DNA of 64,000 nt. Source: Haloarcula vallismortis ATCC 29715 (GTDB taxonomy: Archaea > Halobacteriota > Halobacteria > Halobacteriales > Haloarculaceae). Below, one piece after another: positions 21,580 through 40,970 of the stretch (positions within the stretch are counted from its first letter, which is position 1; each line of letters begins with the position of its first letter). The position numbers and the translations under genes are program-made. The notes beneath the pieces are model-generated. The model was given only the letters and a program-made list of their open reading frames with translations. It was not told the origin of the DNA and did no database searches. The stretch spans positions 1 through 64,000 of the forward strand of contig NZ_AOLQ01000009.1 of NCBI RefSeq assembly GCF_000337775.1. Reading direction: 5' to 3'.

Positions 21580-21779
21580 ACTCTCCGTTTAACATAGGCG
21601 TACTGGTAGCGGTAGCGACTGTTCTTGGTTGCCGACTGGCTTGAGCGTGCACAGGTGTTCTCTGGTGGGACGGGGCCGTGACACTGGTACTACCTGACTC
21701 ACGCTCGTCACCGCTACTGGTGTCTGACTGCCACATCTGCGCCAATTCTCGGCTCCTCTGAGTGGCCTGCTGGTATTCG

Positions 21780-21853
21780 CATCTCCTATTTAAACCCCTT
21801 CATAATACAGCGCGCTTCCTACCGAACTCCGAGGGGAACCCACAACTAGAGCC
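21780..21853 (+). promoter_or_regulatory. Probable promoter of the dms operon
   Basis: A TATA-like TATTTAAACC (about 21787-21796) and a second AT-rich element ATAATAC (21802-21808) lie 45-65 nt before the ATG of the first dms gene. The transcript would have a short leader containing GAGGGG-type purines before the start. Upstream, GACAC/GTGTC with inner GTA/TAC at 21680-21724 forms an imperfect inverted repeat that might be a regulator site. Both are read by eye only. Confidence 0.4.
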
Positions 21854-22096
21854 ATGAATGACCCACAGCAGCCGCGGTTGACGCCGATTGATGAGTGGGA
21901 AGACGAAGCGGAAGCGATGCTTGACGGCGTCGAGTACGACACTGAGTTGGGGCTACGGATGGCTCGTGATGCGATTCGTGTCTCGAACGGTGAACTGAGC
22001 GACGCCGAATTCCACGAGAAGTATCACGAAGAAATACTGGAAGAGTTCGGTGAAGACGAGCGGCCGACCAAACCCGAGGGATTCGACGATGACTGA
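21854..22096 (+). CDS. dmsE: Small acidic protein at the head of the dms operon (DmsE-like)
   Basis: An 80-residue highly acidic soluble protein with no membrane segment or cysteine. It contains a helical core DTELGLRMARDAIRVSNGELSDAEFHEKYHEEILEEFG. Similar short proteins stand just upstream of molybdopterin oxidoreductases in haloarchaea. In the characterised Halobacterium dmsREABCD locus the gene in this position is dmsE, so the symbol is by position. Its stop overlaps the start of dmsA by eight bases. Possible role: assembly factor or N-terminal partner of the catalytic subunit; not shown. Confidence 0.65.
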   Translation: MNDPQQPRLTPIDEWEDEAEAMLDGVEYDTELGLRMARDAIRVSNGELSDAEFHEKYHEEILEEFGEDERPTKPEGFDDD

Positions 22097-24578: not shown

Positions 24579-24580
24579 CA

Positions 24581-25411
24581 ATGACGAACTACGGCCTAGT
24601 AATCGATCAGGAGCGGTGTATCGGCTGTCAGGCATGCGCAGTGTCGTGTAAGCAGGAGAACAACGTTCCGATGGGGCAGTTCTGGAACCGCGTCCTGACG
24701 GAGGGCGGCGACAAGATTGACACCCCATCCGGTGGCTACCCCGAAGACGGCGGTAGTGGGTCGCTGGATATGCAGTATCAGCCGACGGCGTGCCAGCACT
24801 GCGAAAATGCGCCCTGTGTGAAGGTCTGTCCGGTCAACGCGACGTACACCCGAGACGACGGCATCGTCGAAATCGACTACGACAAGTGTATCGGCTGTCG
24901 CTACTGTATGGCGGCCTGCCCGTACAACGCACGGGTGTTCAACTGGGACGAACCTGAGCAGATGCCCGAAGAGGGGACGGGCGACGTTGCTGCCCGGCCA
25001 CAGGGCGTCGTCGAGAAGTGTACGTTCTGTAGCCACCGCGTCGACGAGGGACTCGATCCGGCCTGTGTCGTCAACTGCCCGGCCGACGCACGCATCTTCG
25101 GCGACCTCGACGACGAGGGGAGTACTGTCTCGAAGTACATCAACGAGTACGAGACCGACCAACTCCTCGAAGACCGCGGAACGGACCCGAAGACGCACTA
25201 CATCAGCGGCGAGATGAGCCCCGGTCGGCCACAGACATCGGATAAAATGGAGAGCGAACTCGACGATGTCTCTCCGTGGTCCGATGGAACCGAGGACGTG
25301 CCGTCTGACGCCGACGGAAGCGACAGTAGCGACTCGGGTGGCAGCCACCATTCCATCGAGGGCGATGCAGATCCACACGTCCCAGCAGTGGGGTCTGGAG
25401 GTGATGACTGA
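24581..25411 (+). CDS. dmsB: Four-cluster ferredoxin subunit (DmsB/NrfC-like)
   Basis: A 276-residue electron-transfer subunit with four cysteine clusters: CIGCQACAVSCKQEN, CQHCENAPCVKVCP, CIGCRYCMAACPY and CTFCSHRV...CVVNCP. It carries electrons from the membrane anchor to the catalytic subunit; no signal peptide, so it should be co-exported with DmsA by the Tat route. The last ~60 residues are a Ser/Asp-rich tail not found in the compact family core. It starts three bases after dmsA and ends in a one-base overlap (TGATG) with the next gene. Confidence 0.93.
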   Translation: MTNYGLVIDQERCIGCQACAVSCKQENNVPMGQFWNRVLTEGGDKIDTPSGGYPEDGGSGSLDMQYQPTACQHCENAPCVKVCPVNATYTRDDGIVEIDYDKCIGCRYCMAACPYNARVFNWDEPEQMPEEGTGDVAARPQGVVEKCTFCSHRVDEGLDPACVVNCPADARIFGDLDDEGSTVSKYINEYETDQLLEDRGTDPKTHYISGEMSPGRPQTSDKMESELDDVSPWSDGTEDVPSDADGSDSSDSGGSHHSIEGDADPHVPAVGSGGDD

Positions 25412-26706
25412 TGGCCGCTGACTCGTCGCGGATCGCAATCCCTGCCTTCGGGACGAAAGGCAAGCTGTGGCTCGGTCTGCTTGCTACTTTCATGGTCGCT
25501 GGACTGGCAGCCTGGGGCTACCAACTCACCACGGGGCTTGTCGCCACGGGGATGCGAAACGTCTTCTCGTGGGGCCTGTACATCATGATGTTCGTCCTGT
25601 TCGTCGGGCTGTCTGCTGGGGGGCTCATCATCTCCAGCGCACCGAAGTTCTTCCATTCACACCGCTACGAGGGGTTCGCACGGCTCGGCGTACTGGTCAG
25701 TCTCGCGTGTATCACCGTCGCCGGACTCCTCATCCTGCCGGACATCGGGCGGCCCGAACGACTCTACCAGTTTTTCACCTCGCCGGATTTCCGCTCGCCG
25801 ATGGTGTGGGATTTCGGTATCGTCATCCTCTACGGCGTGCTAAACCTCTGGTATCTGTGGCTGCTGACCCGCCGCGACCTGGCCGCTCGCGGGTCGCGAC
25901 TCGCACTGGGTATCGCCGACACCGATGCTGGACGCGACCGTGACCGCACGCTCATGTTCTGGACCGCGGCACTCGCACTCCCGACCGCAGTCGCGCTCCA
26001 CTCCGTGACCGGGTGGATTTTCGCGACGCAGATCGGACGTGGCGACTGGTTCAGCCCCCTCGTCGCACCGGTGTTCATCGCCAAGGCGCTCGTCTCTGGG
26101 CTCGGGTTGTTGCTCGTCGTGTCGGTACTCGCGGACCGGCTCACGAACTACGAGGTTGACCGCGAGGAACTCACGAGTCTCGGCAAGATACTCGGCGTCT
26201 TCCTCGCGCTCCACGTGGTGTACCTGCTCGCGGCCGAGCGATTGCCCCACGCCTGGGCGAACCACTTCGAGTTCTGGGCTATCACCGGTAGCTTCCTTAT
26301 CGGCGAGTCCGTCTACTTCTGGCTCTGGACAGTCGTCGGCGGGGCGGTCCCGCTTGTCATGCTGATGATCCCATCGCTTCGGAAGCGCGTGTCGGTCATC
26401 TTCACCGCGAGCCTGCTTGCGGTCTTCGGAACGATGTTCGAAGGGATTCGGCTGGTCTTCACCGGATACGAGGTCGCTAACATCGACCTCCCGCCGGGCA
26501 TCTCGGTTGGTGGTGAGTATGCCGGTATCACGACCGACATCTGGGCGACTGCGGGGGCCTACACCCCGACGCTGGTCGAAGTGGCTGTGACCCTCGGTAT
26601 CGTCGCCTTCGGCGCACTCATCGTCACGCTCGGACTGAAATACGTGCCGATACAGCAAGTCGACGGACAGTACGTGACTGACGGCGGGACACAGGAACGA
26701 CAATGA
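25411..26706 (+). CDS. dmsC: NrfD/PsrC-family membrane anchor subunit
   Basis: A 431-residue hydrophobic protein with about ten membrane helices, of the NrfD/PsrC/HybB family. It includes the early FSWGLYIMMFVLFVGLSAGG helix and a RPERLYQFFTSPDFRSPMVWD loop. It should take electrons from menaquinol and pass them to the ferredoxin subunit. Members of this family carry no heme, unlike E. coli DmsC, which it replaces. Overlaps dmsB by one base and the chaperone gene by four. Confidence 0.9.
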   Translation: MAADSSRIAIPAFGTKGKLWLGLLATFMVAGLAAWGYQLTTGLVATGMRNVFSWGLYIMMFVLFVGLSAGGLIISSAPKFFHSHRYEGFARLGVLVSLACITVAGLLILPDIGRPERLYQFFTSPDFRSPMVWDFGIVILYGVLNLWYLWLLTRRDLAARGSRLALGIADTDAGRDRDRTLMFWTAALALPTAVALHSVTGWIFATQIGRGDWFSPLVAPVFIAKALVSGLGLLLVVSVLADRLTNYEVDREELTSLGKILGVFLALHVVYLLAAERLPHAWANHFEFWAITGSFLIGESVYFWLWTVVGGAVPLVMLMIPSLRKRVSVIFTASLLAVFGTMFEGIRLVFTGYEVANIDLPPGISVGGEYAGITTDIWATAGAYTPTLVEVAVTLGIVAFGALIVTLGLKYVPIQQVDGQYVTDGGTQERQ

Positions 26707-27290
26707 CTGGACAGACTGAACCCTCCACCGCGCGTAAGCAAGCGCCCGAGCGCGACACTGGGAGTGACGGGTTTCGGTCGGACGCCGCGGCGACCTACGC
26801 TGTCCTCGCCGAGTGCTGGCGGGAACCGACCGAACAACTGACCGAAGCCGTTGAAACAGGCGAACTGGCTCCGGTGGTCGGCGACATCGGTTCGGTCGAC
26901 TTGCGCTGCCTTCGCGCCGAATACACCCGGTTGTTCATCGGGCCAGCGGGACCACCGTGTCCACCCTACGAGAGCGTCTACCGCGACGGTGACGACCCGG
27001 ACGAACTCGGCCCGGTCAAGGGGCCAGCCACGACGGCTGTCGTCCGCTGGTACAGCGAGTTCGGCGTCAGGCCCGCTGCCGCCCATTCTGACCTCCCGGA
27101 CCACATCGCCACTGAACTGGAGTTCGCCGCCTACCTCGCAGAAGAGGGCTTCGACGAACAGCTTGACCAGTTCTTCGAGGAGCACCTCGCTGTCTGGGCT
27201 GACGAGTTCCTCGAGCAGGTCGAGACAGCGACACGCGAAGCGTTCTACGCGTCGCTGGCAACAACGACGCGGAAAGCACTAAGTCGATAG
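26703..27290 (+). CDS. dmsD: TorD/DmsD-family chaperone for the molybdoenzyme
   Basis: A 195-residue all-helical cytosolic chaperone. The TorD-type core is visible: LRAEYTRLFIGPAGPPCPPYESVYRDGD, then DLPDHIATELEFAAYLAEEG and FFEEHLAVWADEFLEQVE. These proteins bind the Tat signal and help insert the Mo cofactor before export. It overlaps the anchor gene by ATGA and ends the dms operon. The nar-operon homolog at 32299 has the same pattern, so each reductase has its own chaperone. Confidence 0.9.
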   Translation: MTGQTEPSTARKQAPERDTGSDGFRSDAAATYAVLAECWREPTEQLTEAVETGELAPVVGDIGSVDLRCLRAEYTRLFIGPAGPPCPPYESVYRDGDDPDELGPVKGPATTAVVRWYSEFGVRPAAAHSDLPDHIATELEFAAYLAEEGFDEQLDQFFEEHLAVWADEFLEQVETATREAFYASLATTTRKALSR

Positions 27291-29358: not shown

Positions 29359-30597
29359 CTACGGCTTGACTGTCTCCAGTACCCAGGCCTCGGGCGTCTC
29401 TCGTCGGACCCCAAACGGGTCGAAGGCTTCCCGCGGGGCCTCCGCGAGCCGGCCCAGAAACTGCCCGACTGGGGTCGGGTCGCGGTCGCTGACGAGGACG
29501 AACGATTCGCCGCTGTCCAGCGCAGTGAACCGTTCGCGAACCCGGTCTTTGCGCTCCTGTGGCGGCAAACCCCGGATGTCGACCGTGGGGTCGACAGACA
29601 CCTCGCCGGCGGTGTCGAGGGCTGACTCGACGGCGTCCCCTAAACTGCTGACAGCGCCGGGGACGCTGCCGGGTGCCGGCGTCCCCTGCAGGTCCTGAGA
29701 GAACGGGAGTTCAGCCAGCACCTCCGCGTCGAGGTCTTCCAGCGCATCGCCGCTGAACAGGTCGTTCGGTTCGCCACAGCAGTCACAGACGTACTCGGCC
29801 ATGTTGACGACGGTCCCGAGTACCGGCACGTCGTTGTCCCGGAACAGCTCTACCGTCCGGCTGGTGTCGCTGACGCTGGCGTGAAACGGCGTCGTTACGA
29901 CCACTACGCCGTCGACGGGGACCTCCTGCAGCGTCGTCAGCACCACGTCGCCCGTCCCCGGCGGTAGGTCAAGCACCAGCACGTCGTCGTTGCGCCAGGC
30001 GGTGTTCTCGAAGAGGTCATCGAGGGCGTCGTGGGCCATCGCCCCGCGCCAGGCCAGCGGCGCGCCGCTCTCCATCAGGCCGACGCTCATCACGTCCATG
30101 TCACCGGCGCGGACCGGGAGCGGGTCGCCCGCCTCGCTAGAGTGGACCGGCCCGCTCACCTCAAGCAGTTCGGGAACGTTCGGCCCGTGGATATCGGCGT
30201 CGAACAGCGCCACGTCGTTGTCAGCAGCCAGCGCACAGGCCAGATGCGTGGCGACCGTCGACTTGCCGACGCCGCCTTTCGCGCTGGCGACGGCGACGAC
30301 GTGGTCGAAGGATTCGACGCCGGCGGTGCCCTCGCTCGTGGGTGTCGTCCGTTCGACGTGGACGCTGTCGACGCCGTCCACGTCGTCGACCGCGTGGAGC
30401 ATCGCCTGGACGACCTGCGTGCTTGTCTGTCCGTCTACGGCGGTCAGGTCGGCCTCGATGGTCACGTCGCCGTCGGCCGCGTCGATGTTCTCGACGAAGC
30501 CCGCGTCGAACACGGAGAGGTCGGCGTTCGGGTCGCGTACGTCTCGCAGTGCGGCTTCGATACGGTCGGTCAGGGTGGTGGGCGTTCCGTCAGTCAT
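29359..30597 (-). CDS. Mrp/NBP35-type Fe-S carrier ATPase fused to a C-terminal DUF2249 domain
   Basis: A 412-residue protein with three parts: an N-terminal MIP18/DUF59-like domain (~1-85), a Mrp P-loop ATPase with KGGVGKST at 107-114 and the family CxxC (VCDCCGEPNDLF), and a C-terminal DUF2249 domain (~335-412, VDIRGLPPQERKDRV onward). Mrp proteins carry and transfer Fe-S clusters. The ATG at 30597 is used because the domain begins there; an open frame continuing to 31014 is an Arg/Pro-rich antisense shadow of the HEAT gene. It is the last gene of the nar operon, two bases after the HEAT gene, suggesting a role in maturing nitrate reductase clusters. Confidence 0.88.
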   Translation of the reverse strand: MTDGTPTTLTDRIEAALRDVRDPNADLSVFDAGFVENIDAADGDVTIEADLTAVDGQTSTQVVQAMLHAVDDVDGVDSVHVERTTPTSEGTAGVESFDHVVAVASAKGGVGKSTVATHLACALAADNDVALFDADIHGPNVPELLEVSGPVHSSEAGDPLPVRAGDMDVMSVGLMESGAPLAWRGAMAHDALDDLFENTAWRNDDVLVLDLPPGTGDVVLTTLQEVPVDGVVVVTTPFHASVSDTSRTVELFRDNDVPVLGTVVNMAEYVCDCCGEPNDLFSGDALEDLDAEVLAELPFSQDLQGTPAPGSVPGAVSSLGDAVESALDTAGEVSVDPTVDIRGLPPQERKDRVRERFTALDSGESFVLVSDRDPTPVGQFLGRLAEAPREAFDPFGVRRETPEAWVLETVKP

Positions 30598-30599
30598 GG

Positions 30600-31451
30600 T
30601 CAGAGGTTGGGCATCCGATTGAGTCTGTCTTCGCCGGGCAACAGTCGGGCGTCGTTTTCCAGCGCACCGCCGAACTGTCGGCGGAACCGTCCGGGGTCCG
30701 CTTCGAGGGACCGCTCGGCGGTCTGGCGGACGACGGTGGCCGGGTCGTCGGTGAGTTCCCGCAGTCGCTCGCGGGCGCGGTCCTCGTCGACGCCGCCGAG
30801 CATGTGGGCGGCCCACTCGCGGACCCGCTCGCTGTCGTCGCGGCTCTGTTCCAGCAGCAGGTCGGCCATCGCTTCGCCGCGGAGTTTGAACAGCGAGATG
30901 GCCGCGTTGCGACGGACCGCGTGATGGTCGTCGCGGACGGCACTCTCGATGTCGTCTTCGTGGGCCTCGCGGTCGACGTTGTCCAGCGTGACGACGGCCT
31001 CCGCCCGGACCCACGGGTCGGGGTCGTCGAGCAGTTCCACCGCCACCGCTGCGGCCCGCTCGCCGCCGTGGGCCGTCAGCGCTTCGACGGCGAACTGTCG
31101 CACGTCGCTGTCGTCGTCGGTCGTCGCCGCGCGGGCCAGCGCTGCCACGATGTCGTCGGTGGTCGCCCGGTCTTTGAGTTCGAGGACAGCGCGCCGGCGG
31201 TCGGTTTTCGCGCCGTGCTCGATGTCCGACAGCAGCGACGTTACCGCGTCGTCCTCGACGGGTTCGGTGTCACTGGCGGCCAGTTCTTCGGGCGTGGCCT
31301 CGCCGATGGTCACGTCCTCGCGGCTCACCTCGATGTCCTCCAGCGCCTCGATGTCGGCGTGCAGGCCCGGACTCCGCTCCGGGTCCAGTTGCGGGTCCGG
31401 GTCCTCTTCGAGGTGCTTCTCGAACTCGTCGTCGTCGTGACAGCCGGTCAT
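30600..31451 (-). CDS. HEAT-repeat protein of the nar operon tail
   Basis: A 283-residue acidic soluble protein. After a charged N-terminus (1-65) come about five HEAT/PBS-lyase-type helical repeats (~70-260). Repeated motifs include DSDVRQFAVEALTAHG, DPWVRAEAVVTLDNV, HHAVRRNAAISLFKLRG and SERVREWAAHMLGGV. Such arrays are protein-binding scaffolds. It overlaps the membrane-protein gene upstream by four bases and is followed at once by the Mrp ATPase. Related repeat proteins occur near haloarchaeal nar genes, but no function is known to me. Confidence 0.85.
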   Translation of the reverse strand: MTGCHDDDEFEKHLEEDPDPQLDPERSPGLHADIEALEDIEVSREDVTIGEATPEELAASDTEPVEDDAVTSLLSDIEHGAKTDRRRAVLELKDRATTDDIVAALARAATTDDDSDVRQFAVEALTAHGGERAAAVAVELLDDPDPWVRAEAVVTLDNVDREAHEDDIESAVRDDHHAVRRNAAISLFKLRGEAMADLLLEQSRDDSERVREWAAHMLGGVDEDRARERLRELTDDPATVVRQTAERSLEADPGRFRRQFGGALENDARLLPGEDRLNRMPNL

Positions 31452-32302
31452 GGCTGACCCTCCTGTGCGGTGAGCGTGGCGACCCCGAGCGCGAACGGGA
31501 GCGCCCGCGGCAGCGACGCAGGGACACCGGCGAACGCGACCAGCGCGACGCCGGCCAGCAACTGCCAGCGGCGGGTCCGGCTGGCAGCGCTGCCCGTTGT
31601 CACCGCGCCGGCGACGGCCAGTGCGACGACCGGCAGGCTGGTCCCGACGACGCCGGTCCCGGTGAGCGTGACCGCGCCGGTGACGAACGGGACGGCACGA
31701 CCGACGGCAAATACGACGGCGAAGGCGGCGATACCGCCGAATATCGCGCCCCAGTCAGCCGTCGATAGCGACCGCCAGTCCGTCGCCGCGAAGGCCGGCG
31801 TCGATGCAATTCCCAGCAGCGCAACGGTCGAGGCCACTGGACGGAGACTTGTCCAGCCGCCGACGCCGCTCGCCAGCCCGATGCTGAGTGCAGCACCGAG
31901 CAGGGCGGTCGCGGCGGCCGAGACGAGGTCCAATCGGTGTCCTACGACGGCCGCGACGGTCGCAGTCCCGAGGATGACAGCGACAGCCGCCGGCAGCACT
32001 GCCGCGCTACTGAGCAGCGACAGCAGGCCGAACACGCCGACGAACAGCAGGCCAATGCCGGCCAGCGGGTCGGTGTCGGTGACGGCAACGGCAATTGCCG
32101 CTGCGGCGACGACGGCCGTGGACACAGTTGTCGCGAGGTCGGGTGCGACCGGAACGGCTGATTGTCCCGGTGCGTTGACGAACAGAACGGCGAGGTAGCG
32201 GGCAGCGACCGTGACAGCCGCCGCGCCGACCGCGAAGTCCGCTAGCGAGCGGCTCTCGCCGGATAGCAACGGTCTGACCCGCTGATGCAGCGCCGCTGTC
32301 AT
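31448..32302 (-). CDS. Polytopic membrane protein of the nar operon tail
   Basis: A 284-residue Ala/Val/Gly-rich protein with about eight to nine predicted membrane helices and almost no polar loops. No family recognised and no conserved ligand residues (only isolated His) that would suggest heme binding. It overlaps the NarJ-like chaperone gene and the HEAT gene by four bases each, so it is translated with them. It could be a transporter (for example for nitrate/nitrite) or an assembly factor, but it does not resemble the NarK type. Function unknown. Confidence 0.7.
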   Translation of the reverse strand: MTAALHQRVRPLLSGESRSLADFAVGAAAVTVAARYLAVLFVNAPGQSAVPVAPDLATTVSTAVVAAAAIAVAVTDTDPLAGIGLLFVGVFGLLSLLSSAAVLPAAVAVILGTATVAAVVGHRLDLVSAAATALLGAALSIGLASGVGGWTSLRPVASTVALLGIASTPAFAATDWRSLSTADWGAIFGGIAAFAVVFAVGRAVPFVTGAVTLTGTGVVGTSLPVVALAVAGAVTTGSAASRTRRWQLLAGVALVAFAGVPASLPRALPFALGVATLTAQEGQP

Positions 32303-32979
32303 CGCCTTCCCTCCAGCCTCTCCGCGAGGTCGTTGCGGTCGGCTCGGACGAACGTCTCAAGCAGTTCGCCGAAGCCGCCGTAGATGTCGGTCCCCGGTTC
32401 GTCGGCCAGTCGGTCCGCGACGCCGGCCGCCGCGTGGCCGAGGTGGCGGTCGTGGAAGTCCAGCCGAGCGATTGCGGCGTCCTCGCCGACGGCGGCTTCA
32501 CGGCGTGCCAGATAGCCCGCGAACTCCAGTTCGTAGGTCACGGCGTCGTGGTTGTCCCGCTCCTCCTGATCGATTTCGAGACCGTAGTGGCTGTAGGCCC
32601 GCGAGAGGTCGAGGTTCACGTCGTTCCAGGAGTGGTCCGGCCGATACTTGGACTCGTACAGCGGGACCGGCGGTCCCTCCGCTTCCAGCGAGCCGTCGGT
32701 GCGGTCTGTGTACTCGCTGTAGCCGAGTTCGAAGATGTCGTTGTAACGAGCCGCGAGCGTCTCGTAGTCGTCGTCGGTCGTGAGCGGCGGGAGGGACACG
32801 TCCAGCGTGGTGCGGTCGAGACAGGCCCGGAGGTCGGCTTCGAGCGAGCCGTCCGCGGCGGCCTCGTGGAACGCCTCCTCTGGGTACTCGAACGCCTTCG
32901 AGAGCGCTGCGTACACCGCACCGCGTGCGGCTGCGTCCTCGTCGAGATCGTCCATGGGGTCAGTGGGAGTCGTCGCCAT
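32299..32979 (-). CDS. narJ: TorD/NarJ-type chaperone of nitrate reductase
   Basis: A 226-residue helical cytosolic protein with the TorD-like pattern: LAARYNDIFELGYSEYTDR, PPVPLYESKYRPDHSW, VTYELEFAGYLARRE and DFHDRHLGHAAAGVADRL. It should guard the NarG Tat signal and assist Mo-cofactor loading. The ATG at 32979 overlaps the gamma-subunit stop as ATGA. The open frame to 33117 is an unsupported extension. The dms chaperone at 26703 is a paralog. Confidence 0.88.
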   Translation of the reverse strand: MATTPTDPMDDLDEDAAARGAVYAALSKAFEYPEEAFHEAAADGSLEADLRACLDRTTLDVSLPPLTTDDDYETLAARYNDIFELGYSEYTDRTDGSLEAEGPPVPLYESKYRPDHSWNDVNLDLSRAYSHYGLEIDQEERDNHDAVTYELEFAGYLARREAAVGEDAAIARLDFHDRHLGHAAAGVADRLADEPGTDIYGGFGELLETFVRADRNDLAERLEGRR

Positions 32980-33812
32980 CACTCGACCCCCCGCGTGCGG
33001 TAGATGCCGAAGCTGGTGACGCCGACCACGGCGACGATAGCGATACCAGCGATGGTCCACAGCAGCGTCTCGTACGGTGGTCCCTGCGGGCCGCCGCTGA
33101 AGGGATAGTAGTGCCACTCGCTGACCGCTTTCTGGCCGGACCGCTCGCCGTTCGAGCCGTTCCAGACGGCGAAGGCTACGTCGAGGTCGCCGTCAGTTCG
33201 CAGGTCGGTCCGGTTCTCGCCCGACACGTCGAGCGGCCGCGAATAGACCACCGTCCAGGTGGCGTTGCCGCCGGTGCCGGCGTGACTCGCATTCGCCTGT
33301 ACGGTCGGGTTCTCGAATGCCGTGGTCGAGCCAGCGCCACCGGCGAGCAGTTCCTGCGTGCCGGTCGCCCCGCTCCAGTACCAGACGTTGACCCGGTTGT
33401 CCGGACCACCCATTGCTATCGGCGGCCGGGAACTCGTGTTGGCCGGGAACTGGACCGCGACGGCGTCGGCGAACTCCCGCGTGGCACTGGCGTCCATGTC
33501 CCGGGTTGCGTCGTGCCACTCCAGGCGGACGTACAGCCGTTCGTCGGTGCGGGCCGCCTGCACGTCGACCGTCTCGATGCTCGTGTCGTCGGCGTTTGGC
33601 ACGCTACTCGGGGCGCTTGCAAGCGGCACGTCCGAGGCCGGGACTGCTTCCCAGCCGTCGGCATCCGGCTCATCGAGGTTGGCGTCCGAGACCTCTCTCA
33701 CCGGAATCTCGTGTGCTGGCCGGGCGCTCGCCAGCGGCGCGGCCACCGTCGAGATGACGATGAGCCCCGCCAGCACCGCCGTGAGTGCGAGTGTGCGTCG
33801 GTGGTCAGTCAT
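32979..33812 (-). CDS. Heme-binding gamma subunit (ethylbenzene dehydrogenase/DMSO dehydrogenase gamma-like)
   Basis: A 277-residue exported protein: signal peptide (~1-30, ending ASARPAHE), a beta-rich domain (~35-240) of the EbdC/DdhC/SerC type, and a C-terminal membrane helix (~249-270). The motif LYVRLEWHDATRDMD and the run PPYETLL fit the family, which binds one heme b through Met/Lys ligands. It should link the outward-facing NarGH to the quinol or cytochrome partner, as in haloarchaeal periplasm-type nitrate reductases. Separated from narH by a 258-base hairpin-rich segment, while the downstream narJ overlaps it. Confidence 0.82.
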   Translation of the reverse strand: MTDHRRTLALTAVLAGLIVISTVAAPLASARPAHEIPVREVSDANLDEPDADGWEAVPASDVPLASAPSSVPNADDTSIETVDVQAARTDERLYVRLEWHDATRDMDASATREFADAVAVQFPANTSSRPPIAMGGPDNRVNVWYWSGATGTQELLAGGAGSTTAFENPTVQANASHAGTGGNATWTVVYSRPLDVSGENRTDLRTDGDLDVAFAVWNGSNGERSGQKAVSEWHYYPFSGGPQGPPYETLLWTIAGIAIVAVVGVTSFGIYRTRGVE

Positions 33813-34070: not shown

Positions 34071-35144
34071 TCACTCATCGTCGAACACCTCCAGTCGATA
34101 CTGTTTGGCCGGGTTCTTGTCCTGAAGCAGTTCCATCAGCTCGCTGTCACCACCCTGGCGAACGCGCTGCCGGTGGGCCTCGATAGTGTCGAGCGCCTCG
34201 TCGACGCCGTCGCCGAACAGGTTCCGGAGGTACTGCCGGGGAATCCGGTCGATGTCGACCGTCTCCCCGTCCTCCGTGTGCTGGCCGGGGGCGAAGGGCG
34301 GGATGTAGTAGACGTTTGGTTGCGTGCGGAACTCCGGATGGAGCGGCAGCGCGACCTCGTACTCCTCGACGAGCTTGTGGATCGGCCCTTCCTCGTCGTC
34401 GAGGAAGCCGACCATCCGGAGCTGGGGCGGACACTCCTCAGCGCAGGCCGGCGCGAACGTCTCCCCGTCTGGACCCTCGCCCTCGATACGGGGGTAACAG
34501 AAGATACACTTCTCCGATTTCTTCGAGACGGTGTTGTAGTACACCTTCTTGTAGGGACACCCCTCGACGCAGTAGCGGTAGCCCCGACAGCGGTCCTGGT
34601 CGACGAGGACGATGCCGTCCTCCTGGCGCTTGTACAGCGCCGAGCGCGGGCAGGCCTCGACACAGGAGGGATGGGTACAGTGGTTGCAGATGCGCGGGAG
34701 GTAGAAGTAGTAGCTGTTGGGGTACTCGCCGGCCCCCTGGTCCTCGTCCCAGTTGGGGCCCCATTCCGCGCCCTCGCGTGGCCGCAGCGGCTCGTCGCTG
34801 CCCTCGTACATGATCTCGCTGTGGTTGAACTCCCAGGCGCGGCCGTAGTCCTCCTCGTCGGGAATCTCGCCGGGCGAGCGGTCCGAATGTTCCTCGGACT
34901 CCCAGCCGCCGCCGGAGTCCTCCCAGCCCCGCGGGTAGCCCTCGCCGGGCTTGGTTTCGACGTTGTTCCAGTACATGTACTCCGACCCGCCATCCTCCGT
35001 CCAGAGGCTCTTGCAGGCGATGGTACACGTCTGGCAGCCGATACATTTGTTCAGGTCCATCACCATCGCGACCTGGTGGTCGACGCCGTCCGCGACGTTG
35101 ACCAGCGTGTCCTCGTCTTGGTCGTCCTGTTGGTCAGTGCTCAT
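34071..35144 (-). CDS. narH: Respiratory nitrate reductase beta subunit (four Fe-S clusters)
   Basis: A 357-residue electron-transfer subunit. Four cysteine groups are visible: CIGCQTCTIACKSLW, CNHCTHPSCVEACP, CRGYRYCVEGCPYKK and CIFCYP...CAEECP. The third group has Tyr where E. coli NarH has Trp at the [3Fe-4S] site, typical of periplasm-type NarH. Long acidic inserts lie between groups one and two. It overlaps narG by four bases and has no signal of its own, so it is exported together with NarG. Its final codons (VFDDE) are part of the duplicated 18-mer. Confidence 0.96.
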   Translation of the reverse strand: MSTDQQDDQDEDTLVNVADGVDHQVAMVMDLNKCIGCQTCTIACKSLWTEDGGSEYMYWNNVETKPGEGYPRGWEDSGGGWESEEHSDRSPGEIPDEEDYGRAWEFNHSEIMYEGSDEPLRPREGAEWGPNWDEDQGAGEYPNSYYFYLPRICNHCTHPSCVEACPRSALYKRQEDGIVLVDQDRCRGYRYCVEGCPYKKVYYNTVSKKSEKCIFCYPRIEGEGPDGETFAPACAEECPPQLRMVGFLDDEEGPIHKLVEEYEVALPLHPEFRTQPNVYYIPPFAPGQHTEDGETVDIDRIPRQYLRNLFGDGVDEALDTIEAHRQRVRQGGDSELMELLQDKNPAKQYRLEVFDDE

Positions 35145-37999
35145 TCGCTGTCACCTCCGCTGGGTCGGACATCGACACGGACGTCGCTGTTGACCCCTGT
35201 CGGCCCCCAGTAGTTCGGGAAGAAGTGCAGGTGCTCCCCGGTGTCCTCGGGGTACTGCACTAGCTGTGTCGGCTTCATGTACATCGGGACGAGCGTGTTG
35301 AAGTTGTCCCGGTCGGGGTACTGGAACTTCTCCCAGGAGAAGAAGTGCCGGACGGTCCCCGGCTCGCTGGAGGGGTAGATCTTCGCTTGCACCTCCACCG
35401 CGCCGAGGTCGTTGTACACCTCCACGGTGTCGCCGTCCTCGATGCCCCGCTCTTCGGCGTCCTTGGGGTTCAGATACACCACTGGCTCGCCGCGCTGGAG
35501 CCTGAGCATCTTGGTGTCGTCGCGCCACGTCGAGTGAATAGACCACCGACCGTGGGGCGTGTTGTACGACAGCGGGTAGTCGCCGCCGGTGTCTTCCGGC
35601 CCCTCCTTGTGGGTCGGCAGCTCCTCCCCGAGTTCGAGATACCAGTCGTGGTCGATGTAGTACTGCTGTCGGCCGGTGAAGGTCGGCCAGGGGTTCTTGT
35701 CGTGGACGTAATCCTGCCACGGGACGTAGGCCTCGCCGTCTTTGATGTCCGAACTCCAGTGGTCGCCAGCTTCGAGGAACCGCTGCGGTTGCTCGTCGAT
35801 ATCGTCGAAGGTTATCTGCTCGTTGCTGCCCTCGGGATTGGTCTCCTCGGAGTGTTCGAGGATGAACTCCGCCGCAGCTTTGTCTTCGACGAGACCTTCC
35901 TCTTCGCCGCTCTCCCAGTCGCGGACGTAGTCGTCGTAGATGGTCGTAAGGTCGATGGTCCGGTCGAACTTCCGGTCTTCTATCGGCTCGACACCGCGCT
36001 CCCGGGCGCGCTCCTGTATCTTCTCGGCGAGCAGGCGGAATATCTCCCAGTCGGTCTTGGCCTCGCCGAGGGGTTCGACGGCCGGCGTGAACGGGTGCAC
36101 GTAGGTGTGCATGTCCGTCTCCGAGAGGTCGTACTTCTCGTAGTGGCTGGCCGCCGGCAGGACGATGTCTGAGTACATCGCGGTCGAGTCCATCCGGAAA
36201 TTGATGTCGACGACGAGGTCGAGCTTGGGCCAGAGCTGTTCTTCGAGGGCGACGTTGCCCTTGGCCTGGTTGAAGTAGTTTCCGCGCCAGATGAACATCG
36301 TAGACGGGTCCGGCCGGCTCCCGTCCTCGCGTTCTTCGGGGTAGACCGGCATCCATCCCTTATCGATGGACTCCCGGATTTTCTCGGCGGTGTCCGGGTC
36401 GGTATTGTCGAGGATGCCGGCGTGGAAGTAGGTCCACAGCGTCGTCGGCACGCCGCGGACGTTCCCGGTTGGGAACGACAGGACCTTCCAGCCGTGGAAC
36501 GACCAGATCTTCTCCTGGCCGACGTAGTGGTCCAGCCCGGTGCCGGGGTCGCCGAGGTTCCCCGTCAGCGTCACGAGCAACTGGATGGCGCGGTTGCCCA
36601 GGTCGTTGTGATACCAGTCGTTGACGCCCTTGCCGTGGATGATCTTGGCGGCGTCGGCCTCGGCGAACTCGCGAGCGACCCGCTGGTAGGTGTTCTCGCC
36701 AACGCCGGTCTCTTCGTGGACGACATCCGGCGTGTACTGACTGAGCTCGTCGGTGAGGTTCTCCCAGACCGACCGGACCGCGACGCTGCCCGCGTCGGTG
36801 TCGACGCTGCGTTCGACGCTCAGCTGCGGGTCGAAGTCGAGTTCGATGCTCTCTGAGTGGTCGTGCTGGCCGTCCCGCTCGCCGAGCGAGCCGGGCGCTC
36901 GACGGAGGTTCCCGTCGGCGTCGACCATGACGAACACCTTCTCAGGGTCGTCGGCGTCCGCGGCGAGGCCGACCTCGCTGGCCCGGAGGAACTTCCCGGT
37001 GTCCTCCCGGACCAAAAGCGGCATGTCGGTCTGCTCTTTGAGGTGTTCCTCGTCGTGCAGTCCCTCGTCGACGATGGTCTGGGCCATGCCCAGCGCGAGC
37101 GCGGTGTCGCTGCCGCCGTGGGGCGAGAGCCACTCGTCGGTGTGAATCGCCGTCTGGGAGTAGTCGGTGAAGATACCGACCCGCTTTGCGCCCTCGTAGC
37201 CGGCGTCGAGGAAGTACTTCGCGTCGGGGATTCGCGTGACGTTGATGTTCGACCCCCAGGCGATGATGTAGTCGGCGTTGTGCCAGTCTGCGGATTCGGC
37301 GTTGTCCGTCTGGGTGCCCCAGGTGATGGGCTGGCCCGGCGGCAGGTCCGAGTACCAGTCGTAGAAGCTATGCGAGACGCCGCCGAGCAGGTTCACGAGC
37401 CGGGAGCCGGAGGCGAAGCTCACGGGCGACATCGCCGGAATCGGCGTGAACCCGGAGATGGCGTCGTACCGGCCCGCCTGCACCTCGTCGATGACGTGGT
37501 CGGCGATCTCGGTCAGCGCCTCGTCCCAGCTGATCCGCTCCCACTGGCCCTCGCCGCGCTCGCCCGTGCGGCGGAGCGGGTGGAGCACGCGCTGGTCGGC
37601 GTTGACGTAGTCCGTGTAACAGGCCCCCTTCTGACAGCCACGCGGGTTCGGGTCAGGGAGGCTCTCGTCGAAGGTCGGGTAGTCGCCGGCCTGTTCCTCG
37701 CGCCAGACCTGGCCGTCCTTGACGTAGACGTTCCACGAGCAGGAGCCGGTGCAGTTGACGCTGTGGGTCGAGCGGGCGACGGAGTCCCAGTCCCACTCGT
37801 CGCGGTAGAGGTCCTCCCAGTCCCGGTACGGATACGACCCGATGGGGTCGTCGACCGCCTCCAGACCGTCCATGCCGTCGTCGGCAAACGACAGCCCCGT
37901 CGCGCCAAGCACCGATGCCGCTCCGAGCCCGCGCACGAAGTCGCGGCGACTGATTCCCGCACTGTCCGCCTCGTCGTCAGTCAGGTCGTTTCTACTCAT
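35141..37999 (-). CDS. narG: Respiratory nitrate reductase alpha (catalytic) subunit, exported type
   Basis: A 952-residue Mo-bis-MGD enzyme reducing nitrate to nitrite. A Tat signal (SRRDFVRGLGAASVLGATG, ~18-36) places it outside the membrane, as known for haloarchaeal NarG and unlike bacterial cytoplasmic NarG. The FS0 cluster ligands are His79, Cys83, Cys87 and Cys122. The block SFYDWYSDLPPGQPITWGTQTD (~211-232) contains the aspartate that binds Mo in NarG. It overlaps the small membrane gene upstream by eight bases. Length is shorter than E. coli NarG (~1246), typical of archaeal forms. Confidence 0.96.
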   Translation of the reverse strand: MSRNDLTDDEADSAGISRRDFVRGLGAASVLGATGLSFADDGMDGLEAVDDPIGSYPYRDWEDLYRDEWDWDSVARSTHSVNCTGSCSWNVYVKDGQVWREEQAGDYPTFDESLPDPNPRGCQKGACYTDYVNADQRVLHPLRRTGERGEGQWERISWDEALTEIADHVIDEVQAGRYDAISGFTPIPAMSPVSFASGSRLVNLLGGVSHSFYDWYSDLPPGQPITWGTQTDNAESADWHNADYIIAWGSNINVTRIPDAKYFLDAGYEGAKRVGIFTDYSQTAIHTDEWLSPHGGSDTALALGMAQTIVDEGLHDEEHLKEQTDMPLLVREDTGKFLRASEVGLAADADDPEKVFVMVDADGNLRRAPGSLGERDGQHDHSESIELDFDPQLSVERSVDTDAGSVAVRSVWENLTDELSQYTPDVVHEETGVGENTYQRVAREFAEADAAKIIHGKGVNDWYHNDLGNRAIQLLVTLTGNLGDPGTGLDHYVGQEKIWSFHGWKVLSFPTGNVRGVPTTLWTYFHAGILDNTDPDTAEKIRESIDKGWMPVYPEEREDGSRPDPSTMFIWRGNYFNQAKGNVALEEQLWPKLDLVVDINFRMDSTAMYSDIVLPAASHYEKYDLSETDMHTYVHPFTPAVEPLGEAKTDWEIFRLLAEKIQERARERGVEPIEDRKFDRTIDLTTIYDDYVRDWESGEEEGLVEDKAAAEFILEHSEETNPEGSNEQITFDDIDEQPQRFLEAGDHWSSDIKDGEAYVPWQDYVHDKNPWPTFTGRQQYYIDHDWYLELGEELPTHKEGPEDTGGDYPLSYNTPHGRWSIHSTWRDDTKMLRLQRGEPVVYLNPKDAEERGIEDGDTVEVYNDLGAVEVQAKIYPSSEPGTVRHFFSWEKFQYPDRDNFNTLVPMYMKPTQLVQYPEDTGEHLHFFPNYWGPTGVNSDVRVDVRPSGGDSE

Positions 38000-38174
38000 T
38001 GGTGATGAACACTGTCGCAGTCGCGCAGGCAGTGCCGGCCACGGCCAGCGCGATGCCGGCGAGCGTGCTACCGCCGACTTCGAGGCCGGCGGCGACCAGC
38101 ACGAGGCCGACCAGCTTGCTCGTCGTATCCAGCAGGCGATACTGTCGCTCAGTCAGCTCGACGGTCCCGGTCAT
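37992..38174 (-). CDS. Small two-helix membrane protein between cytochrome b and narG
   Basis: A 60-residue protein with two hydrophobic helices (~16-33, 38-57), overlapping the cytochrome b gene by four bases and narG by eight. Translational coupling on both sides argues that it is real. Small genes in this position are found in other haloarchaeal nar operons, where it has been given letter names (such as narD) without known function. Possibly a membrane linker between the cytochrome b module and NarGH. Confidence 0.7.
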
Positions 38175-39586
38175 CTGTCTCCCTCCGGTTCGGCGGTTTC
38201 GTCGTCAACGTTGTCGGCCGCGTCATCTTGGACCCCGCCGCCGTCGGCAGCCACGTCACCCTCTCGGGACGGCGTGGGCTCGCCGTCGCGCAACAGCAGG
38301 TACGTAATCCCCCCGAAGACCGGCGGGACGACGAGCAGCGCGGCCGTCAGGATGGGGTTGACGACGCCGGTGGTCGTTCCAAGCACCTGGTCGGCGAGGA
38401 TGTTGTTCATCCCCGCGATGGAGGCGATCATGATGAACGCGACGGCGCCCACGCCGACGCCGGTCTGCCAGGCCCGGTCCAGTGGGTCCGCGGTGAAGTG
38501 GGTCGGCTCCGTCCGGTCGATAAATGGCCAGACGGCGACAGCGGCAAACACCAGTCCCGGGAGGACGATGCCGCCGATGAACTCCCCGTTGATGTGGGCC
38601 GGGCCGATGTTGAAGCTGATCTGTGGCAGGAGCTTCAGGAAGCCGTACACCCACATCAGGAACCAGTCCGGCATGATGAGCTCCGGCGTGGCCGCGGGGT
38701 CGTTCGGGCCGTACTCGGCGACGTTGTGGACCGGCAGCAGGCCCGAAAGCGCCGACAGCGTCGCCGCGGTGACGAAAAACACCACCGCTGAGACGGCGGC
38801 CTGGTTCGGGAACGCCGGCAGGCCGATGATGATGTCGTCGTCGTCCTCGTCGACGGGCTGGCGGCCGCCGGTCACGTCGCCGTCCCGCGGGGCCTCAGTG
38901 TGTTTCTGCCGGATGAGGATGGCCATGTGGACCGCTAGGCCCACGGCGATGGCAGCCGGTATCACGAGGACGTGGAGGAAGTACAGCCGCGGGATGGTGG
39001 CACTGGAGGGGAACTCCCCCCCGAACACCACCTGACCGAGGAAATCACCTAACAGGGGTATCGACACGGTGAGATTGTAGCCGATACTCGTGGCCGTGGC
39101 GGCGAACTCGTCGAACGGCAGGGCGTAGCCGGTGTAGGCTGCGCCCATCGCCAGCGCCGCGAGCCCGGTCCCCACAATCCAGTTTGGCTCCCGCGGATTG
39201 CGGTACGCGCCGGTGAAAAACACCCGTAACATGTGCAACCCGATAGAGGCGACAAAGAGGTGGGCCGCCCAGTGGTGGAGCCGGCGGATGAACATCCCGA
39301 AGGGCACGTCGTAGGTTATGTGCAGTACCGAGACGAACGCCTCGGGCATCTCCTTGCCCTGAAACTTCTGGACGCTGCCGTCGTACTCCACGTCGGAGGT
39401 CGAGGGCTCGAAGAAGAACCCGAGGAAGACCCCAGACAGAATCAGGAGGAGGAAACAGAACAGCGCCACCTCCCCCAGCAGGAACGAGTCCTCGGCCGGG
39501 AACGCCTTCCCGAGGAACTTCTGGCCGTTCTCCAGGTCCAGCCGGGTGTCAAACCAGTCGTAGACGGCTTTCGCGCGGGACATCAT
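38171..39586 (-). CDS. narC: Cytochrome b (b6-type) of the nitrate reductase operon
   Basis: A 471-residue membrane protein combining the cytochrome b N-terminal four-helix core and C-terminal helices. Heme ligand pairs are His104/His118 ([20 protein letters not shown]) and His205/His220 ([22 protein letters not shown]). Spacing is 14 in the first pair and 15 in the second, the latter as in b6-type cytochromes. A quinol-site-like region and an acidic C-terminal tail follow. With the Rieske protein it should form a bc-type quinol-oxidising module feeding NarGH. Its start overlaps the Rieske gene. Confidence 0.92.
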
Positions 39587-40239
39587 TCACCTCCGGGGCC
39601 GACTGGCCCCTCGAAGTCACCGGTGGCGACGAGGAATCCGTCGCTGGTCACCGTAATCGGAAGCTGTGGGAGCGCCCGTCCCGGCGGGCCGCCGCTGACC
39701 GCCGCGCCCTCTAGAACGTTGAACTTCCCGAAGTGACAGGGACAGACGACCAGGTCCTCCTCCCGGTCTGACACCATACAGCCGGCGTGGGTACACACTT
39801 TGGAGAAGGCGGCGTAGCCGCTGACGGTGAACCCCTCCGAGATGTCACTGCCGTAGTCAGACTCAGCGTAGCGCACCAGCAGCGTCGGGGCGTCTTCGAT
39901 GCCGGGCCGGGGCTCTGGGAAGACGGTGATGTGCTCGCCTTCGGAGAGCCGTCCCTCCGCGATGCGTTCGCCCTCGCTGTCGACGAGGTGGATGCCGTCG
40001 GAGTACACCGGCCCGTTGTACCCTCGCTCGAACACTTGCGTGGTGCTGGCAAGCGGGGCGGTGAGGCTGGCGACGGCGGTCAGGCCACCGACGGTCGCGA
40101 GGAACTTCGCGAAGTCCCGGCGGCGGAGTTCTGCGCGGGCGTCTCCATACAGTGTGGGAGACGTACCGCTGGGCCCGTCACACGAGCAGTCGTCGCTCTG
40201 TTCCTCGTCGTCGTCATCGGGTTTCGGATACTCTATCAT
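39583..40239 (-). CDS. narB: Rieske [2Fe-2S] protein of the nitrate reductase operon
   Basis: A 218-residue protein. An acidic cytoplasmic N-terminus (with CSC at 18-20) precedes a Tat signal/anchor ([21 protein letters not shown], ~38-58) and the Rieske domain with CTHAGCMVS and [10 protein letters not shown], the Cys2His2 ligands. It passes electrons from quinol via cytochrome b. ATG 40239 overlaps the NarA-like stop as ATGA; an open frame to 40500 is an antisense Arg-rich artefact. In Haloferax and Haloarcula nar operons the Rieske gene has the same position and the name narB. Confidence 0.93.
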
Positions 40240-40811
40240 TCGTGCCCCCTGAGTTCGGCGACTTCGACGTGTGGCATGAACCAGGCGTAGTACGCGACCG
40301 TCGAGAGCGCGAGCGAGAGAAACAGCCCCGTCGCGTACAGCCCGAAGTACTGAGTGCGGGCGAGCGTAAGGTACTCGCCAGTGAACAGCGCCGCGAAGAC
40401 AATAGAGAGGGCTGTCAGTCCGCTCATCGCGACGAGTCCCTCTATGGCGTCTGAGGCGTCGTGGTACTCGACGACCCAGCGGTGCTCCGTATCGAGCCAC
40501 GGCAGCGAGACCGTCCCGCCGTCAGTGACTGGTTCGGCCTCGTCGGGCGGCCGGACCGCCCTGTTCATGAACTGGTGGGCGGCCGTCAGCACGCCCACGA
40601 GGCCGAACAGGGCGACCCAGACGACGACGCCGACCTGGCTCGGCGACAGTTTGTTCGGCGTCTCGACCGGGCCATCGAGCGGCCGGATGTCGCTGACGCT
40701 CTCGTCGATAGCGATCTCTTCCGACGGTGGCTCGCCGTGCAGTGCGACGTACCACATCGGCAGTAGTACCGCCGTTATCAACAGACCGATGAGTATCGTG
40801 TTGCGTCTCAT
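40236..40811 (-). CDS. narA: NarA-like membrane protein, nar operon
   Basis: A 191-residue protein with four predicted membrane helices (~4-24, 60-82, 122-148, 154-178). The first two are separated by an acidic, probably external, loop. No heme-binding histidine pair is evident; single His occur in the loops. It stands directly before the Rieske and cytochrome b genes with an ATGA overlap. The name follows the first-gene position in haloarchaeal nar operons. Likely a structural subunit of the quinol-oxidising module; its reaction is unknown. Confidence 0.7.
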   Translation of the reverse strand: MRRNTILIGLLITAVLLPMWYVALHGEPPSEEIAIDESVSDIRPLDGPVETPNKLSPSQVGVVVWVALFGLVGVLTAAHQFMNRAVRPPDEAEPVTDGGTVSLPWLDTEHRWVVEYHDASDAIEGLVAMSGLTALSIVFAALFTGEYLTLARTQYFGLYATGLFLSLALSTVAYYAWFMPHVEVAELRGHE

Positions 40812-40928: not shown

Positions 40929-40970
40929 CGGTTTTTTATACGAACATGTTCGCACAGACTTTCTTATACC
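40929..40970. promoter_or_regulatory. Divergent nar/narO promoters around a 12-bp palindrome
   Basis: The perfect palindrome CGAACATGTTCG (40941-40952) directly abuts the minus-strand TATA box TATAAAAAA (40932-40940) of the nar operon. It lies 10 bases from the plus-strand TATA box CTTATACC (40963-40970) of the regulator gene, whose ATG is ~25 nt further on. One site could therefore control both directions. Haloarchaeal NarO/DmsR-type activators are reported to need inverted CGAAC/GTTCG half-sites upstream of target promoters. The half-sites match that memory, but the spacer here is only two bases. Confidence 0.65.

Follow-up and report, generated by a model that had tools for sequence, protein, structure and literature searches.

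A probable iron–sulphur maturation module encoded alongside exported type II-like molybdoenzymes in haloarchaea

Insertion of [4Fe–4S] clusters into respiratory molybdoenzymes prior to their export by the twin-arginine translocation (Tat) system is known mainly from Escherichia coli, where general carriers serve. In eukaryotes, the cytosolic iron–sulphur (Fe–S) protein assembly (CIA) machinery includes the ATPase NBP35 and Cia2, a protein of the MIP18 family. The HEAT-repeat protein Met18 is reported to bind client via its N-terminus and Cia2 via its last HEAT repeat (PMC10728100), the bacterial protein MrpORP to transfer its cluster in vitro to apo-proteins of the adjacently encoded ORP complex (PMC6345978) and the chaperone NarJ to be needed for insertion of the FS0 cluster, then of the molybdenum cofactor (Moco), in E. 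coli NarG (PMC10609526). For the haloarchaea, a 2008 review described the Haloferax nar operon as ending at narJ (PMC2483277), and a 2024 paper reported that in Haloferax mediterranei the operon includes a gene, E6P09_17415, encoding a P-loop NTPase with a DUF2249 domain that is induced during denitrification (log2 fold change 3.60; PMC11218638). Here, we describe a 64,000-nucleotide stretch of Haloarcula vallismortis ATCC 29715 DNA (contig NZ_AOLQ01000009.1, positions 1 to 64,000; referred to below as the window) in which the nar operon runs on past narJ into three further genes, encoding a polytopic membrane protein, a HEAT-repeat protein and an Mrp-type ATPase fused to DUF2249. These three proteins probably form a client-dedicated Fe–S maturation module of exported type II-like molybdoenzymes. 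By its description, and without sequence comparison, E6P09_17415 is most likely the same gene as the window Mrp-DUF2249 in another species.

The trio is real: its order and its location on the minus strand directly after narJ were confirmed. Read along that strand, the operon encodes a Rieske protein, cytochrome b, an exported NarG, NarH, a heme b gamma subunit and a NarJ-type chaperone, followed by the membrane protein (31448..32302, 284 amino acids, predicted to be all-helical), the HEAT-repeat protein (30600..31451, 283 amino acids, HEAT_2 E 2.7e-30) and the Mrp protein (29359..30597, 412 amino acids). An earlier note on this DNA had described the three genes as tightly coupled, and had the outer coordinates right; the coupling is borne out by the sequence, in which the narJ stop overlaps the membrane protein start in ATGA, the membrane protein stop overlaps the HEAT start in a second ATGA, and the HEAT stop (30602-30600) ends 2 nucleotides ahead of the Mrp ATG. 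The Mrp start was taken as the ATG at 30597, with the 551 amino acid open reading frame (ORF) regarded as an upstream extension.

The window Mrp protein is an Mrp/NBP35 P-loop ATPase with three recognisable parts: an N-terminal MIP18-like domain (FeS_assembly_P), a NUBPL/ParA domain (PF10609, E 7.2e-63) with a KGGVGKS Walker A motif, and a C-terminal DUF2249 domain (29362..29592, minus strand; PF10006, E 2.1e-15, 56.7 bits vs a cut-off of 29.5), of which 77 amino acids were used for alignment and structure modelling. The protein falls under the cut-offs of the NCBIfam equivalog models for ApbC (NF008669, 172.4 vs 348) and MrpORP (NF041136, 184.6 vs 450).

Distribution was followed in 146 Halobacteriales genomes, scoring per genome at most 16 candidates for HEAT, 12 for Mrp and five for the type II alpha subunit model TIGR03479; weak matches may be missing from these counts. 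The membrane protein is found in 24 genomes, at 25 places, and NarG proteins over the TIGR03479 cut-off occur, among the matches listed, in exactly these 24 genomes, again at 25 places, sharing contigs with the membrane protein at a distance of a few kilobases. All 25 membrane protein matches lie in nar operons, with none found elsewhere. In another genome (G110), narG is broken up, scoring 925 bits (below cut-off), and the membrane protein has no match; this narG gene (L084, on G110:C102) is fragmented by in-frame stops, and a second NarG (L130) is likewise split over several ORFs, reflecting either decay or assembly error. L084 was excluded from the operon counts.

At E 1e-10, the HEAT protein yields 48 matches in 36 genomes. 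The best 25 (144–592 bits) are in nar operons and the next 16 (52–79 bits) share a strand with a second molybdoenzyme encoded within a few kilobases; the last seven (44–51 bits) match the middle and later repeat part alone and are near no TIGR03479 place among the matches listed. The window Mrp protein has 41 matches in 31 genomes at E 1e-62, the best 37 of which (310–896 bits) are encoded in 21 nar and 16 second operons. Three of the other four (229–247 bits) lie beside a third, NxrA-like alpha subunit, and the fourth (L172) is on a 5-kilobase contig without an alpha gene. The earlier note had proposed a dedicated Fe–S carrier with a scaffold, tied to a molybdoenzyme, and this is supported by the operon-bound distribution; the refuting condition set in that note, module genes located mostly away from molybdoenzyme operons, was not borne out, with 25/25 membrane protein, the best 41/48 HEAT and the best 37/41 Mrp matches inside such operons.

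Gene order was examined in two sets of loci, an order set (L060–L100) and a scan set (L104–L163), whose genomes overlap (L114, for example, is the same place as L070) and whose counts are kept separate below, except for one protein of ~200 amino acids. The scan set comes from a search of 84,980 species with a HEAT alignment, via two HEAT peptide patterns, from which distant relatives would escape. It returned 60 loci, 58 of them in molybdoenzyme operons (45 nar-type and 13 second-type, including five whose contig ends before NarG); the other two are bacterial loci (L161, L163) encoding unrelated HEAT proteins. The membrane protein and HEAT are present in 45/45 nar-type loci and Mrp in 42/45, and the order is kept in all 45 for the genes visible at each. 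Conservation of this order is far beyond chance. NarG is reached in 40/45 nar-type loci; Rieske, cytochrome b, NarH and gamma are present in every one of these 40. In the order set, start codons were picked nearest the upstream stop, so the intergenic gaps there are no independent evidence of coupling; at three loci (L088, L093, L096) the gene caller chose antisense ORFs and HEAT was placed by the genome search instead.

The enzyme of the window nar operon is of type II. NarG (35141..37999), NarH (34071..35144), the heme b gamma subunit (EB_dh; 32979..33812) and the NarJ-type chaperone (32299..32979), all on the minus strand, pass the type II dimethyl sulphoxide-reductase-family cut-offs (TIGR03479, TIGR03478, TIGR03477 and TIGR03482, respectively), NarG with 1328.7 bits; against the narG equivalog TIGR01580, NarG scores 562.6, under the cut-off of 1084.15. 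NarG and NarH are the proposed clients of the module.

The second operon, fetched at 16 loci, has the usual order alpha, beta, TorD chaperone, heme gamma, HEAT, a soluble protein of ~200 amino acids and Mrp; at two loci (L089, L092) the Mrp gene is ahead of alpha. In the example studied most closely (L085), Pfam confirms the HEAT, FeS_assembly_P, NUBPL and DUF2249 domains. Its subunits fall below all four type II cut-offs (alpha 445.6/984.75, beta 232.2/480.7, gamma 136.3/169.85, chaperone 73.4/152.3), and the enzyme is therefore termed type II-like rather than type II; each type II model is still the best-scoring NCBIfam model for its subunit. In the PDB, the L085 alpha subunit is closest to Kuenenia NxrA (428 bits), with perchlorate reductase (263) and E. 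coli NarG (187) following. Common to the nar and second operons are alpha, beta, chaperone, heme gamma, HEAT and Mrp; Rieske, cytochrome b and the membrane protein are not shared. Of 29 second-operon loci (16 from the order set and 13 from the scan set, which overlap), 28 encode the ~200 amino acid protein; the exception (L154) is contig-cut. The one sequence of this protein scanned (L085) has no Pfam or NCBIfam match.

A third class of alpha subunit, of ~1180–1200 amino acids, is represented by L164:6358-9897 (minus strand, G145:C1), the only one compared with the PDB, which is a full-length relative of NxrA, the anammox nitrite oxidoreductase, from Kuenenia (737 bits). Further alphas of this size class are at L165–L169, L171 and, at a contig end, L170. 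The class comprises an exported NxrA-like alpha with beta, a chaperone and usually Mrp, and is present in at least nine of the 146 genomes, with ~206–250 bits against TIGR03479. At the third-alpha loci (L164–L171), Mrp is beside alpha in 6/8, including L170 with its contig-truncated alpha; in L166 the Mrp gene is ~5.5 kilobases away, and the only Mrp of L169 is one without a DUF2249-like motif. HEAT was not found among the called genes at these loci. Pfam does not recognise DUF2249 in any of the six third-type Mrps scanned (L164, L165, L167, L170, L171, L172), though each of them shows a D-L/V-R-G motif. A Tat-like RRx[FLVIM] motif is found near the called alpha start in 24/24 nar, 12/14 second and 7/7 third alphas; in the two second-operon alphas without it, the called start looks late.

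These results alter the scope of the module as first proposed. It is not specific to nitrate reductase: HEAT and Mrp also accompany the second, NxrA-like enzyme. Of the trio, the membrane protein alone was found in no operons other than nar. The Rieske protein, also suggested as a client, is unlikely to be a common one, because in the 13 second-type loci of the scan set Rieske and cytochrome b are found in 0/13, yet HEAT is present in 13/13 and Mrp in 12/13, the remaining locus being contig-cut.

The membrane protein is likewise absent from all 13 second operons. It has no Pfam or NCBIfam match and no credible sequence relative in the PDB. The predicted structure (pLDDT 87.6, pTM 0.86) has ~10 long helices. 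No fold relative could be assigned: the best Foldseek E is 0.4 and VIA Z scores of 7.8 or less are in the chance range for helical bundles, so that neither a new fold nor a transporter identity is demonstrated. The occurrence of the membrane protein follows that of Rieske and cytochrome b, found in 40/40 uncut nar loci, so a role at the membrane side of assembly is likelier than one in cluster delivery. The same pattern could suggest that the membrane protein and HEAT belong, as structural or anchoring components, to the final Rieske–cytochrome b–NarGH complex, with Mrp a co-transcribed, housekeeping-like copy; a few operons do lose Mrp yet keep HEAT and the membrane protein. We regard this as distinctly unlikely. 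HEAT is retained in second operons that have no Rieske or cytochrome b, and by eye its N-terminus has no signal peptide, whereas window NarG has a Tat-like SRRDF motif near its N-terminus.

The phylogeny of Mrp also argues against a housekeeping copy. The window genome encodes one high-scoring housekeeping Mrp besides the operon Mrp, and in a tree of 73 sequences, 30 housekeeping and 43 operon Mrps are split with full support (100/100). With 15 other Mrp paralogs added, the 43 operon Mrps still stand apart (100/100, all 200 bootstrap trees), and none of the 15 paralogs has the D-L/I/V-R-G motif. Within the operon group of the first tree, a branch with weak support (79/27) has the nar Mrps on one side. 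Two second-operon Mrps, those of L089 and L092, group with nar (98/95), which speaks against strict co-evolution of carrier and client. The carrier thus appears to have been exchanged between client enzymes, with partner proteins differing by client, a pattern that would fit a shared carrier with client-specific adaptors. The CxxC pair C271/C274, the candidate bridging-cluster ligands, is kept in 21/21 aligned nar Mrps; CxC replaces it in L141 and in several second-operon Mrps of the scan set.

The HEAT protein has a conserved C-terminal tail with an FRRQF motif. In the scan set, this tail is found in 41/42 nar loci with Mrp and 0/3 without (L146, L147, L148). In the order set, it is found in 20/20 nar loci with Mrp, and of the 24 nar loci there, three (L066, L067, L076) have neither tail nor Mrp; L068, where the contig ends before Mrp, has the tail. 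As an Mrp-binding site, the tail is a hint at most: L144 (Halapricum) combines Mrp with a tail-less HEAT, the same holds for second operons, and there are only a few losses, which may be related. Directly behind HEAT in Halorhabdus-like operons without Mrp is a gene for an 80 amino acid protein (L066:12192-12443, L067:12304-12546, L146, L147). In the two sequences scanned this has no Pfam match, and its hhalign probability against the Mrp N-terminus is 37 % compared with 0.5 % or less against three controls, which is suggestive only; possibly it represents a lone MIP18-like domain.

In a subset of nar operons, a molybdopterin-binding-family protein of 166–168 amino acids (PF00174) and a MobA-like protein are encoded directly behind Mrp (L070:13795-14292 and L101:11135-12285, both plus strand). 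Natrinema-type second operons have a mobB gene (PF03205) after Mrp, then genes for a solute-binding protein and a permease (L085:13966-16559, plus strand) that look like a molybdate uptake system. Overall, a mobA-like, mobB-like or PF00174 gene is next to Mrp in 9/45 nar and 6/13 second-operon loci of the scan set, with examples confirmed by Pfam. Such neighbours count in favour of a maturation role. Those present, including the mobB-modA-like arrangement, would also suit a module that inserts or proofreads Moco, or acts as a general chaperone, instead of handling Fe–S clusters. This alternative seems unlikely: 36/45 nar and 7/13 second-operon loci have no such gene beside the module. TusA, a fold relative of DUF2249 (see below), is reportedly linked to Moco synthesis in E. 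coli, which counts for a Moco role. In E. coli NarG, Moco goes in after FS0 (PMC10609526), so Fe–S and Moco defects would be hard to tell apart.

The structure of the window DUF2249 domain was predicted with high confidence (pLDDT 94.9), giving the element order beta-alpha-beta-alpha-beta-beta. Compared with the PDB by sequence, the domain finds nothing credible (best E 0.023). By VIA, the model is closest to TsuB (Z 9.9, 71 residues, 2.0 Å), a SirA-like protein (8.5) and TusA in its complex with IscS (8.2, 70 residues, 2.5 Å); all of the top six are TusA/SirA-type or HP1264, with Smr, IF3-C and Alba domains trailing at ~7 and below. Foldseek is weaker, placing a methyltransferase first (E 4.3e-3) and then TsuB (7.7e-3) and TusA (8.8e-3), both with probability 1.00; no match reaches 1e-3, and many of the first 50 rows are methyltransferase domains. 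From the VIA ranking and the order of secondary elements, DUF2249 is predicted to have a TusA fold. In TusA and SirA, the sulphur-carrying cysteine sits in a CPxP motif. The window domain reads GLPP at the start of helix 1 and has no cysteine, making TusA-style sulphur transfer unlikely; DUF2249 may rather be a docking domain.

Outside the Halobacteriales, in a phylum sample of 196 genomes, no DUF2249 frame among the matches listed exceeds 343 amino acids, which within that sample is too short for an Mrp fusion. Many haloarchaea have, among the matches listed, DUF2249-rich single frames of ~360–560 amino acids with at least three DUF2249 matches (for example, G142:C5:57668-58408 and G118:C6:180741-181481).

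DUF2249 has been linked to regulation. In Thermus thermophilus, two DUF2249 proteins, DrpA and DrpB, are encoded just downstream of the nar operon; their loss is reported to alter nar transcription, and the double mutant to grow poorly on nitrate under anoxia (PMC6282519). By analogy, DUF2249 in the haloarchaeal fusion might sense nitrate or redox state and control expression, with the Mrp ATPase relaying the signal, and DUF2249 genes are indeed reported as induced in denitrifying H. mediterranei (PMC11218638). A regulatory role for the fusion is nevertheless unlikely. The sole H. mediterranei DUF2249 protein described as keeping the DrpA histidines is another one, not the Mrp fusion, which lacks them (PMC11218638). 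In our alignment, which does not include DrpA itself, most nar-type domains, that of the window included, read SDRDP where two single-domain proteins (L066:13752-13982, L079:3740-3970) read NDHEP; second-operon fusions mostly read NDHDP at this position, so the histidine argument is limited to nar. Moreover, the fusion is found in operons of other molybdoenzymes, and the Mrp cysteines are retained.

We return to the proposal that the trio proteins are maturation factors and not enzyme subunits, which we infer from gene content, domains, co-distribution, the Mrp clade and predicted folds; the cluster transfer, protein contacts, order of steps and membrane protein role that follow are a model built on these. 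Mrp-DUF2249 would be a second [4Fe–4S] carrier, dedicated to its client and acting alongside the housekeeping Mrp, with the CxxC pair holding a bridging cluster between two Mrp monomers. Whilst NarJ keeps apo-alpha and apo-beta in the cytoplasm, Mrp would hand over clusters to both (FS0 in alpha, four clusters in beta), the HEAT protein acting as a cytoplasmic adaptor joining carrier and apo-client and the cysteine-free, TusA-fold DUF2249 docking without carrying sulphur. Once Fe–S clusters and Moco were inserted, the complex would exit via Tat, and the membrane protein would join matured NarGH–gamma to its membrane redox partners, Rieske and cytochrome b.

Several points weigh against this proposal. 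Mrp is absent from the operon in some nar loci (3/24 in the order set, 3/45 in the scan set), showing that an operon Mrp is not always needed, and the housekeeping Mrp in the cell could take its place. From gene neighbourhood alone, maturation and regulation cannot be told apart. HEAT repeats are generic and the adaptor contact is putative, and the L089 and L092 Mrps join the nar clade despite belonging to second operons. Lastly, the second and third enzymes are called type II-like from their best matches only.

The remaining features of the window bear less directly on the module. At the start of the operon, on the minus strand, are the cytochrome b gene (38171..39586) and the Rieske ORF (39583..40500, putative start); a further minus-strand ORF (40236-40811) overlaps the latter. 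Upstream of the operon and adjoining a TATA-like stretch is CGAACATGTTCG (40941..40952), an exact palindrome matching CGAAYATDKTYG, a motif described from the denitrification promoters of H. mediterranei (PMC11218638). With up to one mismatch, the window has five matches vs 3.09 expected, which is no enrichment of the motif in itself; the relevant item is the single exact palindrome at the promoter, which is counted on both strands. Convergent with the nar operon is a DmsABC-like molybdoenzyme cluster (20941-27290, plus strand) that includes a DmsD-like chaperone and a regulator gene of the DmsR_N/HTH_10 type. Neither HEAT nor Mrp ORFs were seen within this cluster, indicating that the module does not accompany every molybdoenzyme.

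How much of this is new? The earlier note called the module undescribed, which does not hold for the Mrp-DUF2249 gene, whose existence and induction were published in 2024 (PMC11218638); for HEAT and the membrane protein, we found no published account among open-licence papers in PubMed Central. Nor did we find an account in open-licence papers of the partners of Mrp-DUF2249, its spread over two enzymes and in part a third, its separate clade or the DUF2249 fold. A dedicated carrier and adaptor, kept with two and partly three related enzymes, makes FS0/[4Fe–4S] insertion before Tat export testable in genetically tractable haloarchaea, and DUF2249, a domain of unknown function linked in print to denitrification, gains a predicted fold and a concrete setting. 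The module may also offer a reason why haloarchaeal Nar might not mature from its structural genes alone.

How does the module compare with known systems? The H. mediterranei account of E6P09_17415 gives, as far as its main text goes, no mechanism, partners or distribution and does not mention HEAT (PMC11218638). The NarJ/TorD maturation proteins are, like the module, operon-encoded and dedicated to one molybdoenzyme, but are unrelated proteins, and the main text of a review covering them makes no mention of Mrp, HEAT or ErpA (PMC10609526). DrpA and DrpB resemble the window Mrp in being DUF2249 proteins encoded next to a nar operon; they differ in having no Mrp part in their published description and in being proposed sensors (PMC6282519), and the nar-type fused domain mostly lacks the DrpA-type histidine. 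Closer is MrpORP of Desulfovibrio, which, like the window protein, combines an Mrp/NBP35 ATPase with an extra C-terminal domain and is encoded among Fe–S client genes. Its extra domain is of the dinitrogenase-cofactor type rather than DUF2249, and its description mentions no HEAT partner (PMC6345978); the reported transfer is a precedent for an operon-encoded Mrp with an added domain serving its own client in vitro.

The eukaryotic CIA machinery (NBP35/CFD1, CIAO2/MIP18, MMS19/Met18) offers the broadest parallel, having, like the module, an NBP35-type ATPase, a MIP18-family domain and a HEAT adaptor. The differences are considerable: the window HEAT protein has 283 amino acids compared with a 118 kDa adaptor, the MIP18-like domain and ATPase are in one chain, and the membrane and DUF2249 parts are extra. 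No MMS19 model is among the window HEAT Pfam matches at E 0.01 and no WD40 domain was found among the operon proteins scanned. The likeness is one of analogy, not homology. It is possible, as a tentative extension of the maturation proposal, that the haloarchaea have independently assembled a prokaryotic counterpart of CIA targeting, in which HEAT, a MIP18-like domain and an NBP35-type ATPase would deliver clusters to exported type II-like molybdoenzymes, the TusA-fold domain would dock the carrier at its sulphur or cluster source, and exchangeable partners (the membrane protein for nar, the ~200 amino acid protein for the second enzyme) would set the client.

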